NCBI GenBank assembly: GCA_937873205.1
Contig: CALMVO010000047.1
Coordinates: 1-47,716 of the forward strand
Direction: 5' to 3'
Length of the DNA: 47,716 nucleotides
From: an uncultured Acetobacteraceae bacterium
Lineage (GTDB): Bacteria > Pseudomonadota > Alphaproteobacteria > Acetobacterales > Acetobacteraceae
Shown here piece after piece: positions 34,203-39,457 of this stretch. Each line of letters starts with the position of its first letter. The first letter of the stretch is position 1. The position numbers and the translations under genes are program-made. The notes under the pieces were generated by a model. That model was not told where the DNA came from, did no database searches, and worked only from the letters and a program-made list of their open reading frames with translations.

Positions 34203-34283
34203 ATGAGCGCCGCCCAGCCCGAACGTCAGCGCCTCCTGGCATCCGGACGCTGCTCATGGGGCGCCCGCGCGGCCGTGCCGTGA
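34203..34283 (+). CDS. Possible 26-aa leader peptide ORF
   Basis: This short ORF has a perfect ggagg 8 nt before its ATG, better than any site before the next gene. Its stop TGA overlaps the ATG of the DUF2064 gene (TGATG). It encodes a basic peptide (MSAAQPERQRLLASGRC, then 9 residues). It could be a translated leader that couples ribosomes into the cluster, or a decayed start of the next gene, since both begin ATGAGCGCCG. Confidence 0.4.
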   Translation: MSAAQPERQRLLASGRCSWGARAAVP

Positions 34284-35029
34284 TGAGCGCCGATCTCGGT
34301 GCGCATTGCGCGATCGCCGTGATGGCGAAGGTGCCCCAGGCCGGCCGGTCCAAGACCCGGCTCAGCCCGACGGTGCCGCCCGAGACCGCTGCGGCACTGA
34401 GTGCCGCGTTCCTGCGGGACACCACGGAGAACATTGCCCTGGCCGCGGCACGGGCGCCGATCCACGCCTACGTCGCCTATGCGCCGGCCGGGCTGGAGGC
34501 GCTGTTCGACGGCCATCTGGCAGCGGGAACACGACTCGTGCTGGCCGATGGCAGCGGCGAGATGCCGCCCGGCATCGCCGGCTTCGGCAGCTGCCTGTTC
34601 GACGTCACCCGCGCGCTGCTCGCCCGCGGCTACGGCGCCGTCTGCGTGCTGAACTCGGACGGACCGACGCTACCCACCGACTACCTGCTGCGGGCGCAGG
34701 CGCTCCTGGCGCGCTCGGGCGAACGCGTCGTGCTGGGGCCGGCCGAGGATGGCGGCTACTACCTGCTCGGCATGAAGCGGGCGCACGCCGCACTGTTCGC
34801 CGGCGTCGCCTGGAGCACCGAGGACGTCGCCGAACAGACCCGGGCGCGGATCGCCGGAGCCGGCCTTGAGCTGGCGCAGCTTCCCGCCTGGTTCGACGTC
34901 GACGACGGGCCGTCGCTGCTGCGGCTGCTGCGCACGCTGGATGCGAACGATGGCGGCCATCCCGCCCCCGCCACCCGCGCCGTGATCGAACGGCTCGGCC
35001 TCCGCGAACGCCTGGCGGCGGCCGCGTGA
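34283..35029 (+). CDS. DUF2064/TIGR04282-type glycosyltransferase-like protein
   Basis: The product has 248 residues from ATG 34283. The nucleotide-sugar type fold is shown by AIAVMAKVPQAGRSKTRLSP, VCVLNSDGPTLPTDYLL, GPAEDGGYYLLGMK and WFDVDDGPSLLRLL. The family has a GT-A/cobinamide-guanylyltransferase-like fold, and some members sit in arsenosugar clusters. GTG 34280 is a one-codon-longer alternative. Its stop overlaps the next gene by 4 bp (GTGA). It is the first full-size gene of a coupled series with GT-C, radical SAM and GT2 proteins. Activity has not been settled for most members. Confidence 0.8.
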   Translation: MSADLGAHCAIAVMAKVPQAGRSKTRLSPTVPPETAAALSAAFLRDTTENIALAAARAPIHAYVAYAPAGLEALFDGHLAAGTRLVLADGSGEMPPGIAGFGSCLFDVTRALLARGYGAVCVLNSDGPTLPTDYLLRAQALLARSGERVVLGPAEDGGYYLLGMKRAHAALFAGVAWSTEDVAEQTRARIAGAGLELAQLPAWFDVDDGPSLLRLLRTLDANDGGHPAPATRAVIERLGLRERLAAAA

Positions 35030-36411
35030 GCACCGCCGTCCTGGGCGCGCCGGCCCGACTGGCGATGCCGGAGCGCCTGCTGACGGCGCTCGGCCTGCTG
35101 CTGCTGGCTCTGGTGGGCGCCGGCCTGCTGGTGCACCGGCCGGGCGCGCCCAGCATCGGCTCCGGCTGGCGGGTCCGGGTCTTCGTCGAGCTGCTGGCCG
35201 CGGCCAGCCTGGTGTACTTCCTGGCCTGCGCCGTCGTGCTTCGCCGGCCCGGCAGACCCGGCACGATCTGGCTGGTGCTGGGCGTGGCGCTGGCCATGCG
35301 CCTGCCGCTGCTGCCGGTGCCGCCGTTCCTGTCCAGCGACCTCTATCGCTATGTCTGGGACGGCCGCGTGCAGCTGGCCGGCATCAACCCCTACCGCTAC
35401 ATCCCGGCCGATCCGGCGCTGGCCCGCCTGCGCGACCAAGCGATCTACCCGCACGTGAACCGCCGTGAATACGCGCCCACGATCTATCCGCCGACGACGC
35501 AGCTGGTGTTCCGCGCCGTGGCGGCGATCGCCCAGACGCCGCTCGCCATCAAGACGGTCATGGTCGCCTTCGAATTGCTGGCGGTTGCCTGCCTGTGGCG
35601 GCTGACCGTGCTGGCTGGCCTGCCGCCGGCGCGCGTGCTGATCTACGCCTGGAACCCGCTGGCGGCCTGGTGCTACGCCGGCAACGGCCACGTCGACGCG
35701 CTGGCGATCGGGCTGCTGGGCGTGACCCTGCTCTGCCGGGCACTCCGCCTGGACGGCTGGGCCGGCGCGATGCTGGGTGCGGCCATCCTGGTCAAGTTCC
35801 TTCCGGTGGTGGTGGCGCCCGCGATCTGGCGGCCCTGGCGCTGGCGCATGCCGATCGCCGCAGCCGCCATCATGGTCTTGTTCTACGCATTCTATCTCGA
35901 TGTCGGCGCCAAGGTGCTCGGCTTCCTGTCCAGCTACGGCAGGGAGGAGGGCTTGAGCCACGGCAGCGGCATCTGGCTGCTGGCCGGGCTGCAGCGCCTG
36001 CTGCCGTTGCCAGGCTGGGCCAATGCCGCCTACTTGGCGCTCGGCACCGCGGCGCTCGGTCTCTACGCGCTACGGGTGGCGCTTCCGGGCCGTCTGCCGG
36101 GCCACCATGCTAGGCGCATGGAGACCGATATCGTCCAGGTCTGCCAACGCGCCGGCGTGCTGGCGATCGGCTTCATGCTGCTGCTGACCCCGCATTACCC
36201 GTGGTACTTCCCCTACCTCGCGATGTTCGCGGTGGTGGCACCCGCGCGCAGCCTGATCTGGATGTCGGCGGCGCCGCTTTTGCTCTATCTCAGCCCGTGG
36301 AACGAGTTCTTCTTTTGGCCGTCTCTGATCTACGGGCCGGCGCTTGCCCTGGCGGCGCTCGACCTGTGCCGCCCCATGCTTCCCGCCCTTGATTCAAGGA
36401 ACCTCGCATGA
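35026..36411 (+). CDS. GT-C polyprenyl-phosphate-mannose-type glycosyltransferase (GT87/MptB-like)
   Basis: The product has 461 residues with about 10 membrane helices. The first outer loop has the acidic motif SSDLYRYVWDGRVQLAGINPYRY, and YAPTIYPPTTQLVFR follows, as in GT87/MptA-MptB type mannosyltransferases. Later YAWNPLAAWCYAGNGHVDAL and TPHYPWYFPY are also typical. The enzyme would use a polyprenyl-phosphate sugar outside the membrane; the DPM1-like GT2 two genes downstream could make that donor. The GTG start overlaps the DUF2064 stop, and the end overlaps the radical SAM ATG by 4 bp. Confidence 0.82.
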   Translation: MSTAVLGAPARLAMPERLLTALGLLLLALVGAGLLVHRPGAPSIGSGWRVRVFVELLAAASLVYFLACAVVLRRPGRPGTIWLVLGVALAMRLPLLPVPPFLSSDLYRYVWDGRVQLAGINPYRYIPADPALARLRDQAIYPHVNRREYAPTIYPPTTQLVFRAVAAIAQTPLAIKTVMVAFELLAVACLWRLTVLAGLPPARVLIYAWNPLAAWCYAGNGHVDALAIGLLGVTLLCRALRLDGWAGAMLGAAILVKFLPVVVAPAIWRPWRWRMPIAAAAIMVLFYAFYLDVGAKVLGFLSSYGREEGLSHGSGIWLLAGLQRLLPLPGWANAAYLALGTAALGLYALRVALPGRLPGHHARRMETDIVQVCQRAGVLAIGFMLLLTPHYPWYFPYLAMFAVVAPARSLIWMSAAPLLLYLSPWNEFFFWPSLIYGPALALAALDLCRPMLPALDSRNLA

Positions 36412-37472
36412 CCGTCATCACCCCGATCGCCGCGGCGGCTGACCCGCGCCGCTATTTCGAGCAGGTGGCGCCCGAGCGCTCGGTCGATGCGGTGGCGCCC
36501 CCCGTCTGCCTCTATCTGGAGGTCACCAACCGCTGCAACCTGCTGTGCGAGACCTGCCCGCGCACCTTCGAGGAGCTGGAGCCGCCGGCGGACATGAGTT
36601 GGGAGCTGTTCACCAAGATCGTGGACCAGGTTCCGGGCCTGAAGCGGGCGGTGCTGCACGGCGTCGGCGAGCCGATGCTGGTGCGCGAGCTGCCGCAGAT
36701 GGTGCGCTACCTGAAGGATCGCGGCGTCTACGTGCTGTTCAACACCAACGGTACTTTGATGAACCCGCGCAAGTTTCCCGAGCTGGTGTCGACCGGCCTC
36801 GACGAGCTGCGCGTCTCGCTCGACGCAGCCGACGCCAAGACTTACGAGCAGGTACGCGGCAAGGACTTCTTCGACCGCATCGTGCGCGACGTGCGGCTGT
36901 TTACCGACTACCAGCGCAGCGCCGGCGCCACCACGCCCCGCGTCTCGCTGTGGCTCACCGGCCTCAAGGAGACCGTGCAGCAGCTGCCCGAGTTCGTACG
37001 CCTCGCCGCCGAGATGGGCGTGCGCGAGGTGCACCTGCAGCGGCTGGTGTTCGACGAGACCGGCTTTGGCATGGCGCGCGCCGACAACTCGCTGTTCGAG
37101 CAGACCGTGGCCGAGGAGCAGGCGATCATCGCCGCCGCCGAGGCGGTGGGTGCGGAGCTCGGCGTCACCATCGACGCGTCGGGCGCCACCGAGCCCGGCC
37201 TCAGCCTGAAGCGCGCCGACGACAGCCAGCCCTGGTCGCTGTGCCGCCGGCCCTGGTCGCTGATGTATTTCACCGCGCATGGCCGGTCGCTGCCCTGCTG
37301 CATCGCGCCGTTCTCGGCCCGCGGCTACGAGAGCTACACGCTCGGCAACGCCAGCCAGCAGACGCTGCGCGAGATCTGGAACGGCGACGCTTACAAGAGC
37401 TTCCGCGAGAACCTGCTCGGCGACGAACCGCCGAAGCCCTGCCAGGGCTGCGGGCTGCGCTGGAGCCTCTGA
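36408..37472 (+). CDS. Radical SAM / SPASM-domain protein
   Basis: The product has 354 residues. The radical SAM [4Fe-4S] motif is CNLLCETCP (Cys43, 47, 50), followed by HGVGEPML and LFNTNGTLM. The C-terminal part has a SPASM-like Cys set: LCRRPW, LPCCIAPF and PCQGCGLRW, which would hold auxiliary clusters. The HTLGN-like element is YTLGNASQQTLREIWNG. SPASM enzymes modify peptides or other substrates by radical chemistry. No precursor peptide is obvious except the 26-aa ORF upstream, which lacks usual features. Shine-Dalgarno aagga lies 8 nt before the ATG. Substrate unknown. Confidence 0.88.
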   Translation: MTVITPIAAAADPRRYFEQVAPERSVDAVAPPVCLYLEVTNRCNLLCETCPRTFEELEPPADMSWELFTKIVDQVPGLKRAVLHGVGEPMLVRELPQMVRYLKDRGVYVLFNTNGTLMNPRKFPELVSTGLDELRVSLDAADAKTYEQVRGKDFFDRIVRDVRLFTDYQRSAGATTPRVSLWLTGLKETVQQLPEFVRLAAEMGVREVHLQRLVFDETGFGMARADNSLFEQTVAEEQAIIAAAEAVGAELGVTIDASGATEPGLSLKRADDSQPWSLCRRPWSLMYFTAHGRSLPCCIAPFSARGYESYTLGNASQQTLREIWNGDAYKSFRENLLGDEPPKPCQGCGLRWSL

Positions 37473-37473
37473 C

Positions 37474-38184
37474 TTGGCCGAGCCGACGCAGATCGCCGCC
37501 GTCATCCCGACCTGGAACGAGGCGGGCGCCATCGGCCCCACGGTGGCGCGGCTGCCGCGCGGCTTGGTCGGGCACGTGATCGTCGTCGATGGCGGCAGCA
37601 CCGACGGTACCATCGCCGAGGCCGAGGCCGGCGGCGCCGAAGTGCTGCGGGAGGCCCGCCGCGGCTACGGCCGCGCCTGCCTGAGCGGTGCGGAGCGTGC
37701 GAAAGCGCTGGGTGCGGAGATCGTGCTGTTCCTGGATGGCGACGGCAGCGATTGCGGCGAGCTCGCCGGCCGCATCGCCGGCCCGGTCGCGGACGGCAGC
37801 GCCGACTTCGTGCTGGCCTGGCGCAGCCGCGCCGGCCGCGCGCCCGGTAGCATGGGCCCGCACCAGGTCCTGGCCGGTCATGCCGTCGGCCTGGCGGTCG
37901 GCCTGCTCACCGGCACCCGGTACCGCGACATGTGCGCGTTCCGGGCACTCCGCATCGAGACGCTGGAGCGGCTCGGCATGCGCGAGATGACCTATGGCTG
38001 GAACCTCGAGATGCAGATCCGGGCCGCCGCGGCAGGCTTGCGCATCCGCGAGGTGCCGGTGCCCTATCGATGCCGCATCGCCGGCAACTCGAAGGTCGCC
38101 GGCAACCTGTCCGGCTCGCTCCGCGCGGGCTCGCGCATCCTGCGCACGCTGATCGGCACCGGTCTTCGGGTCCGCAGCACCTGA
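37474..38184 (+). CDS. Family 2 glycosyltransferase (DPM1-like)
   Basis: The product has 236 residues from TTG 37474, 1 bp after the radical SAM stop. A GT-A fold is shown by AAVIPTWNEAGAIGPTV, VIVVDGGSTDGT, the metal site LFLDGDGSD and YGWNLEMQIRAAAAG with VPVPYRCRIAGNSKVAGN. This resembles enzymes that transfer a sugar from a nucleotide to polyprenyl phosphate. No membrane helix is evident at the C-terminus. Upstream in-frame sequence is read inside the radical SAM gene and was excluded. It plausibly supplies the lipid-linked donor for the GT-C gene 35026-36411. Confidence 0.87.
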   Translation: MAEPTQIAAVIPTWNEAGAIGPTVARLPRGLVGHVIVVDGGSTDGTIAEAEAGGAEVLREARRGYGRACLSGAERAKALGAEIVLFLDGDGSDCGELAGRIAGPVADGSADFVLAWRSRAGRAPGSMGPHQVLAGHAVGLAVGLLTGTRYRDMCAFRALRIETLERLGMREMTYGWNLEMQIRAAAAGLRIREVPVPYRCRIAGNSKVAGNLSGSLRAGSRILRTLIGTGLRVRST

Positions 38185-38263
38185 TCCCGACGCCGGGATT
38201 TCTCGTTGACCGCGATCTCCCTGACCAGCATCTTGCCCATTCATGATGCAGGCGAGGATCGCG

Positions 38264-39457
38264 ATGACGACATTGCTCTCGAAAGACGCAAAAGACGACC
38301 TGCTGGAGCGGGGCTATTCCCGCCGGCAGCTTGGGCGCGTCTCCGCCCTGCTCGGTCTTCAGGCAGTGGCCGCCAGCAGCGCGCTCGCGGTGCCGGGCCG
38401 CGCCGCCCTCGCCACGACGACTCCCACCATCGCCGGCAGCAAGCCGGACAAGGCGGGCATGATCCGGATCGGCAGCAACGAGTGCTGGACCGGCCCCTTC
38501 CCCAAGGCTGCCGCCGCCGGCGCCGCGATGGTCCAGCACGGCAACCGCTACGAGCCCGGCGACCTGCGGCAGACCCTGATCGCCAACGTGTCCGCGGTCG
38601 AGCAGGTGCCGATCAGCCACATCCTGCCCTGGCCCGGCTCCAGCGACCCGTTGGCCCGCACGGTGGTGACGTTCTGCTCACCGGGGCGCGGCCTGGTGAC
38701 CGCCGACCCCACCTTCGAGGAAGCCTGGAAGGTCGGCGAGTATCTCAAGATCAAGGTCACCAGGGTGCCACTGCGGCCGGAGAACCGCTACGCGGTCGAC
38801 GTCCGCGCGATGGTGGCGGCCGACCCGAACGCCGGCCTCTACTACGTGTGTTCGCCCAACAACCCGACCGGCACGATCACCCCGCTCGCGGACATCGCCT
38901 GGCTGGTCGAGAACAAGCCGGCCGGCTCGATGGTGCTGGTGGACGAGGCCTACCTGCACTTCGCCGGCGCCCCGAGTGCGGCCTACCTGGTGGCGCAGAA
39001 CAAGGACGTCGTGGTGCTGCGCACCTTCTCGAAGATCTTCGGGATGGCCGGCCTCCGGCTCGGCCTCAGCATGGCCCGCCCCGACCTGCACGCGAGGATG
39101 ATGCGCTATGACGGCCAGATGCAGAGCGGGGCGCTCTCGGTGGTGGCGCTGGCCACCGGCGGCACCGGCGTCCTACTCGCCTCCGATATCGCCGCCCGGC
39201 GCCAGGAGATGATCGAGGTCCGCCAGGCGACCATGGCGCACCTGGCCTCGCGCGGCCTGCACACCCTGCCGAGCGACGCCAACATGTTCATGGTCGACTG
39301 GCAGAAGCCGGCCGCGCAGATGAAGACCGCGTTCGCGGCCCGTCAGATTGACATCGGCCGCAGCTGGCCGATCTGGCCCACCCGCTCGCGCATCACCGTC
39401 GGTTCCGCCTCCGATATGAAGGCGTTCTGCGCGGCAACCGACAGTATCATGGTGTAG
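38264..39457 (+). CDS. HisC-like PLP aminotransferase with Tat signal peptide
   Basis: The product has 397 residues from ATG 38264 (gagga 6-10 nt upstream; ATG 38243 is a weaker option). The N-terminus has a twin-arginine motif SRRQLGR (Arg20-Arg21), a hydrophobic stretch [18 protein letters not shown] and an AxA-type site near residue 50. The rest is a class I/II fold-type I aminotransferase: [17 protein letters not shown], Schiff-base Lys257 in [14 protein letters not shown] and [10 protein letters not shown]. HisC and relatives are cytosolic; Tat export of a folded PLP-loaded enzyme would place it in the periplasm. It is 79 bp after the GT2 gene on the same strand. Confidence 0.88.

Follow-up and report, generated by a model that had tools for sequence, protein, structure and literature searches.

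A Conserved Four-Gene Cassette of DUF2064, GT-C, Radical SAM and GT2 Proteins as a Candidate Pathway for a Lipid-Linked, Radical-Edited Sugar

Sugars destined for the outside of the inner membrane are often handled by a pair of glycosyltransferases. In aminoarabinose transfer by ArnC and ArnT, and where a dolichyl-phosphate mannose (DPM) synthase works with PimE or with glycosylphosphatidylinositol (GPI) mannosyltransferase I, a GT2 enzyme loads the sugar onto a lipid and a GT-C enzyme uses it. Radical SAM enzymes that act on small molecules, such as DesII, BtrN and BlsE, come from antibiotic pathways; we know of no polyprenyl-phosphate GT2 and GT-C partners in these. Radical SAM and GT2 genes do stand together in the arsenosugar set (ArsS, TIGR04282, TIGR04283) and in the mycofactocin cluster (MftC, MftF). 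Here we describe a cassette for a DUF2064, a GT-C, a radical SAM and a GT2 protein at positions 34283–38184 of a 47,716-nucleotide stretch, called the window, from an uncultured Acetobacteraceae bacterium (assembly GCA_937873205.1, contig CALMVO010000047.1). We show that these genes form one conserved four-gene cassette, which we take to be the probable core of a pathway. The two glycosyltransferases have the folds known from the polyprenyl-phosphate sugar pathways, to which the cassette adds a nucleotidyltransferase-like DUF2064 protein and a radical SAM step. We found no paper in the open literature that describes this combination.

A sequence-only reading of the window had combined five genes into one coupled cluster, the fifth coding for an aminotransferase exported by twin-arginine translocation (Tat). 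Open reading frame and family searches indeed returned all five genes, with the families it had named and with tight junctions. In gene order these measure −4, −4 and +1 bp, followed by 58 bp (ATG 38243) or 79 bp (ATG 38264); promoter and terminator scans of the locus found nothing. For the conservation analysis, we scanned 84,980 species genomes, obtained 286 loci with a relative and read the best 80 of the 286. The DUF2064 gene is present in 64 and the GT-C gene in 60 of the 69 loci that have at least 2.7 kb of upstream DNA, while a GT2 gene follows within 1 kb in 63 of the 72 loci with at least 0.9 kb of downstream DNA. With start codons chosen by script, DUF2064 and GT-C are usually spaced at −4, GT-C and radical SAM at −4 or −1, and radical SAM and GT2 at −13 to +16. 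The tight coupling is not due to chance: about 60 orthologous loci show −4/−1 overlaps at these junctions. The neighbourhood check supported one part of the five-gene proposal, the co-occurrence of four genes across families and phyla, and removed the Tat aminotransferase from it. A restriction of the set to close relatives, which would have refuted the proposal, is not what we observe.

The cassette is not confined to close relatives of the window genome. It occurs in many Acetobacteraceae and Methylobacteriaceae and in a second phylum (Miltoncostaea, Actinomycetota), with the same gene order in many alphaproteobacteria and a rearranged one in the actinobacterium. Named hosts are Lichenicoccus, Acidisoma, Acidisphaera, Rhodovastum, Methylobacterium and Methylorubrum, together with metagenome-assembled genomes (MAGs) labelled Rhodopila or Acidocella. 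Counting the window genome, 10 of the first 36 family genomes carry a radical SAM orthologue, and in broad samples the gene is rare (3 of 398 phylum genomes and 2 of 385 class genomes, again including the window's own). A DUF2064 profile derived from the cassette was run on 299 genomes of the order and gave bimodal scores. In 56 genomes tested, the radical SAM gene is present in every one of the 20 with a cassette-type DUF2064 (E ≤ 1e-90), in G788 as a copy in three pieces; the lower-scoring group of 26 has it in G979 and lacks it in the other 25. The distribution is patchy, and Methylobacterium radiotolerans and M. aquaticum carry their copies on plasmids; both points suggest horizontal spread, by which the cassette was probably distributed. 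The broken copy (G788:C1:1916217-1926875), of which one piece has an in-frame TGA, lies near intact-looking DUF2064, GT-C and GT2 genes, an apparent case of gene decay. Two cassette copies each were seen in Methylobacterium hispanicum (L053, L060), Acidisphaera rubrifaciens (L072, L101) and a Rhodopila MAG (L044, L055).

The membrane protein encoded at 35026–36411 (forward strand, GTG start) adopts a GT-C fold in its AlphaFold model, which has a pLDDT of 91.8, and does not reach the gathering cut-off of Pfam GT87 (PF09594; 19.6 of 25 bits). VIA aligned the model with ALG3 at Z 23.9 (3.7 Å rmsd over 336 residues), with GPI mannosyltransferase I at 22.1, with ArnT at 18.2 and with PimE at 18.1. 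The best alignments, for which Foldseek was run too, also include ALG6 and the GT-C-like subunit of the GPI transamidase. The first 44 VIA matches are all GT-C-fold entries, nearly all of them enzymes with lipid-linked donors; with the exception of the transamidase subunit, the neighbours named here take polyprenyl-phosphate sugars. Four acidic residues are invariant (D105, D112, D224 and E308), and the protein unites the GT-C fold with the conserved acidic residues of the class that uses such donors. The structural evidence argues strongly for a periplasmic transferase fed by a polyprenyl-phosphate sugar. The GT2 protein (37474–38184, forward strand, TTG start) is DPM1/AglJ-like according to family and nearest-structure matches. 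Its domain is closest to DPM synthases among solved structures (best match 5mlz, E 1.4e-13), and its score against the AglJ equivalog stays below the cut-off (97.7 of 325 bits). It is, on strong family grounds, a predicted polyprenyl-phosphate sugar synthase.

An exceptional locus ties the two enzymes together. The actinobacterium Miltoncostaea oceani carries, on a megaplasmid, a radical SAM protein with 47% identity to ours, and about 4 kb upstream of it a 651-residue protein in which a GT87-type GT-C is joined to a GT2; this fusion passes Pfam GT87 with 32.4 bits. It is followed by a gene in which DUF2064 is joined to a NUDIX domain (both at L191:1789-4952). That GT-C and GT2 are joined in one protein argues for a shared lipid-linked sugar that both handle. 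The idea of an exported glycoconjugate made via a polyprenyl-phosphate sugar, put forward in the sequence-only reading, is hence supported by the GT-C neighbours, the nearest GT2 structure and the fusion. A second radical SAM gene (L191:935-1768) and a DoxX gene are also found near these genes on the plasmid.

Where the GT-C gene is missing, we noticed TM654, a protein of about 654 residues that is polytopic and has no Pfam match (L052, L064, L075, L082, L099, L100 and L147). It is present in 6 of 9 loci without GT-C and in none of 60 with it. We rejected TM654 as a homologous GT-C: hhalign found no sequence homology between the two, and for this reason it is only a possible stand-in.

The DUF2064 protein (34283–35029, forward strand) passes both curated cut-offs, that of Pfam (82.3 bits, cut-off 25.8) and that of TIGR04282 (135.9 bits, cut-off 134), and the curated family models place it in the CofC-like group with a nucleotidyltransferase fold. 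Its nearest solved structure is 3cgx, a 'putative nucleotide-diphospho-sugar transferase' (E 1.3e-30), and its invariant residues are K24-T-R-L, D126, D156-G-G-Y-Y and D205-V-D. We propose that it is a sugar-1-phosphate nucleotidyltransferase. The gene had initially been given a start at 34203, which had to be corrected: the ATG there is out of frame and the real start is ATG 34283. ATG 34203 opens a frame of 26 codons (MSAAQPERQRLLASGRCSWGARAAVP), the TGA of which (34281–34283) overlaps the DUF2064 ATG. This short frame (34203–34283) may be either a chance or a leader frame.

The radical SAM protein (36408–37472, forward strand) combines the CxxxCxxC motif (C43/C47/C50) with a SPASM region that forms a twitch-like C-terminal domain with one four-cysteine set (C279, C297, C345 and C348, in the invariant pattern C279-x17-C297-C298-x46-C345-x2-C348). 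The twitch cysteines align with those of BtrN and are invariant in 65 orthologues, which makes the enzyme twitch-type, with cluster ligands assigned by sequence only. BtrN is also the best sequence match of the profile among solved structures. It belongs to the twitch class, has a single four-cysteine auxiliary cluster and oxidises an aminocyclitol (PMC9012708). Structural alignments with DesII, BtrN and BlsE show 18–23% identity. A second exceptional operon bears on the substrate. In genome G1034 (L181:5417-12261) we found GT-C, DUF2064, GT2, an SDR epimerase, a cytochrome b, a molybdoenzyme, an aminotransferase and a PRC-like protein; the cassette-type radical SAM gene is absent from this genome, and the epimerase, which matches Pfam Epimerase and stays below the cut-off of the GalE model, occupies its operon slot. 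The exchange supports, without proving it, that the radical SAM enzyme acts on a sugar. We propose that the protein performs a sugar-modifying step in the cytosol, where the radical step had already been placed with support from the present data.

With moderate confidence we favour a pathway to a modified-sugar glycoconjugate, which the cassette would assemble outside the inner membrane by activation, radical editing, polyprenyl-phosphate loading and GT-C transfer. Directly shown are co-occurrence, gene order, coupling, folds, the GT2/GT-C fusion and the radical SAM/epimerase exchange, and from these we infer each chemical step. The CofC-type DUF2064 protein would convert a sugar-1-phosphate into the nucleoside diphosphate sugar, as its fold family suggests. 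The radical SAM enzyme, with one BtrN-like auxiliary four-cysteine cluster, would take a hydrogen from the sugar, which may end up oxidised, epimerised or deoxygenated. GT2 would then put the sugar on polyprenyl phosphate at the cytosolic face, a role its family strongly suggests; the lipid-linked sugar would be flipped, and GT-C, with the structural comparison arguing strongly for it, would move the sugar to a periplasmic acceptor. Of 51 loci, 40 have a Tat molybdoenzyme (PF00174, MsrP/sulfite-oxidase-like) within 6 kb of the cassette and 38 a cytochrome b561, and in most genomes these two may add a periplasmic redox step. A nucleoside phosphorylase could be the source of the sugar-1-phosphate in a subset. 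It is tempting, though we would put it at somewhat less than even, to see here a class of envelope glycosylation not described before: an activated sugar would be rewritten by a radical SAM enzyme, then loaded on polyprenyl phosphate, transferred by GT-C and subjected to periplasmic molybdoenzyme redox chemistry, in alphaproteobacteria (in some on megaplasmids) and one actinobacterium.

Several observations weigh against this pathway. We see no obvious gene for an acceptor. In the window genome the wider module does not form a single locus: two molybdoenzyme/cytochrome b pairs and one homologue of the cytosolic aminotransferase lie on other contigs, and the phosphorylase is missing. The exchange of the radical SAM gene for an epimerase is clear in one operon only (L181), and L147 has a different gene order and no GT-C. 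The curated DUF2064 model is named arsenosugar glycosyltransferase, a name that comes from a presumed pathway and not from a tested function. Finally, the fold scores of the radical SAM protein are tied across substrate types (SkfB Z 22.1, SuiB 22.0, DesII 21.8), so that the fold gives no distinction between enzymes acting on sugars and those acting on peptides.

The ties with SuiB and SkfB fit a different role, in which the radical SAM protein matures a protein or peptide, for example for the linked molybdoenzyme/cytochrome b, and the glycosyltransferases are incidental neighbours. Its closest curated models are in fact metalloenzyme maturases (TIGR04317, 141.9 bits; TIGR04311, 126.6 bits), both far below their cut-offs, and the molybdoenzyme is frequently nearby. 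We nevertheless consider a maturase unlikely: the molybdoenzyme and cytochrome b remain in operons where the SDR epimerase replaces the radical SAM gene, the radical SAM gene tracks DUF2064 rather than the molybdoenzyme, and the single four-cysteine set is that of BtrN and not the two-cluster SPASM pattern (PMC9012708).

Radical SAM adenosylation has been established for arsenic (PMC12159101) and for diploptene (PMC12583986). By an analogous ArsS/HpnH-like logic, the radical SAM enzyme would add the 5′-deoxyadenosyl radical to an acceptor, a phosphorylase would strip the adenine, DUF2064 would activate the resulting 5-substituted ribose-1-phosphate, and GT2 and GT-C would place the sugar. In its favour, 13 of 51 loci encode a PNP_UDP_1 phosphorylase within 10 kb, the divergent loci L130 and L131 have this gene immediately upstream of DUF2064, and DUF2064 exceeds the TIGR04282 cut-off. 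However, no nucleoside phosphorylase was found in the window genome, which rules it out as an obligatory partner; half of the family genomes that carry the radical SAM gene lack it too, and three genomes have it without the radical SAM gene. In addition, the cassette GT2 is not of the TIGR04283 type (40.9 bits, cut-off 182). We judge adenosyl transfer to be improbable.

The arsenosugar set resembles the cassette in bringing together radical SAM, TIGR04282 and GT2 proteins, with a phosphorylase in some loci, and differs in its GT2 type and in lacking the added GT-C. For the radical SAM protein, the best 25 of 44 NCBIfam matches include no ArsS model, so that any ArsS match lies below 37.5 bits, and they include neither HpnH nor HpnJ. 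Mycofactocin likewise has a SPASM radical SAM protein beside a GT2, but MftC reaches only 65.5 of 265 and MftF 20.7 of 280 bits. A mycofactocin-type small precursor peptide gene was not seen at the locus, where no systematic search for it was made. On these curated cut-offs, both pathways are ruled out, in agreement with the sequence-only reading, which had matched the genes to neither.

Among 5.39 million open papers, which do not cover subscription papers, none names DUF2064, and none treats DUF2064 with radical SAM or radical SAM with polyprenyl phosphate and SPASM. If the proposed pathway is correct, it would unite the use of a lipid-linked sugar with radical chemistry on that sugar and would be kept in many environmental and plant-associated bacteria; none of the papers searched has this combination. 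The DUF2064/TIGR04282 family, named after a presumed pathway, would gain a testable function. A defined operon on the megaplasmid of a culturable Methylobacterium makes the cassette amenable to such tests.

The gene adjoining the cassette (38243–39457, forward strand) encodes a Tat-exported pyridoxal-phosphate aminotransferase of the general PRK09105 subfamily (466 bits, cut-off 444) that falls below the PtaA pyoverdine transaminase model (288.6 bits, cut-off 500). It stands beside the cassette in none of the 80 orthologous loci. Its orthologues occur in 5 of 36 family genomes; in the congener G001 the gene is 2.57 Mb away from the cassette, and three genomes (G012, G026 and G029) have it without the radical SAM gene. 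One could imagine that, at least in the window lineage, it replaces a cytosolic aminotransferase and adds a periplasmic transamination to a five-gene pathway, given the shared strand, the 58–79 bp gap without a terminator-like site and an aminotransferase after GT2 in 14 of 63 loci. The latter is, however, a different, cytosolic protein (31% identity over 113 residues) without a Tat leader, and the window genome retains a 52%-identical homologue of it (G000:C36:4805-5896), unlinked to the cassette. Such a pathway is therefore very unlikely. Synteny rules out the five-gene unit, the periplasmic transamination step falls with it, and we judge the Tat aminotransferase to be a bystander.

On pNYY1_1 of Methylobacterium radiotolerans (L192), the annotated order is cytochrome b, molybdoenzyme, hypothetical protein, DUF2064, GT87, radical SAM, GT2, aminotransferase and patatin. 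A DoxX-like protein is encoded within 10 kb of the cassette in 12 of 51 loci. Phosphorylase and DoxX-like genes also pair up away from the cassette (L121, L122, L123, L124, L103 and L120), and such separate pairs occur in genomes without the radical SAM gene as well.

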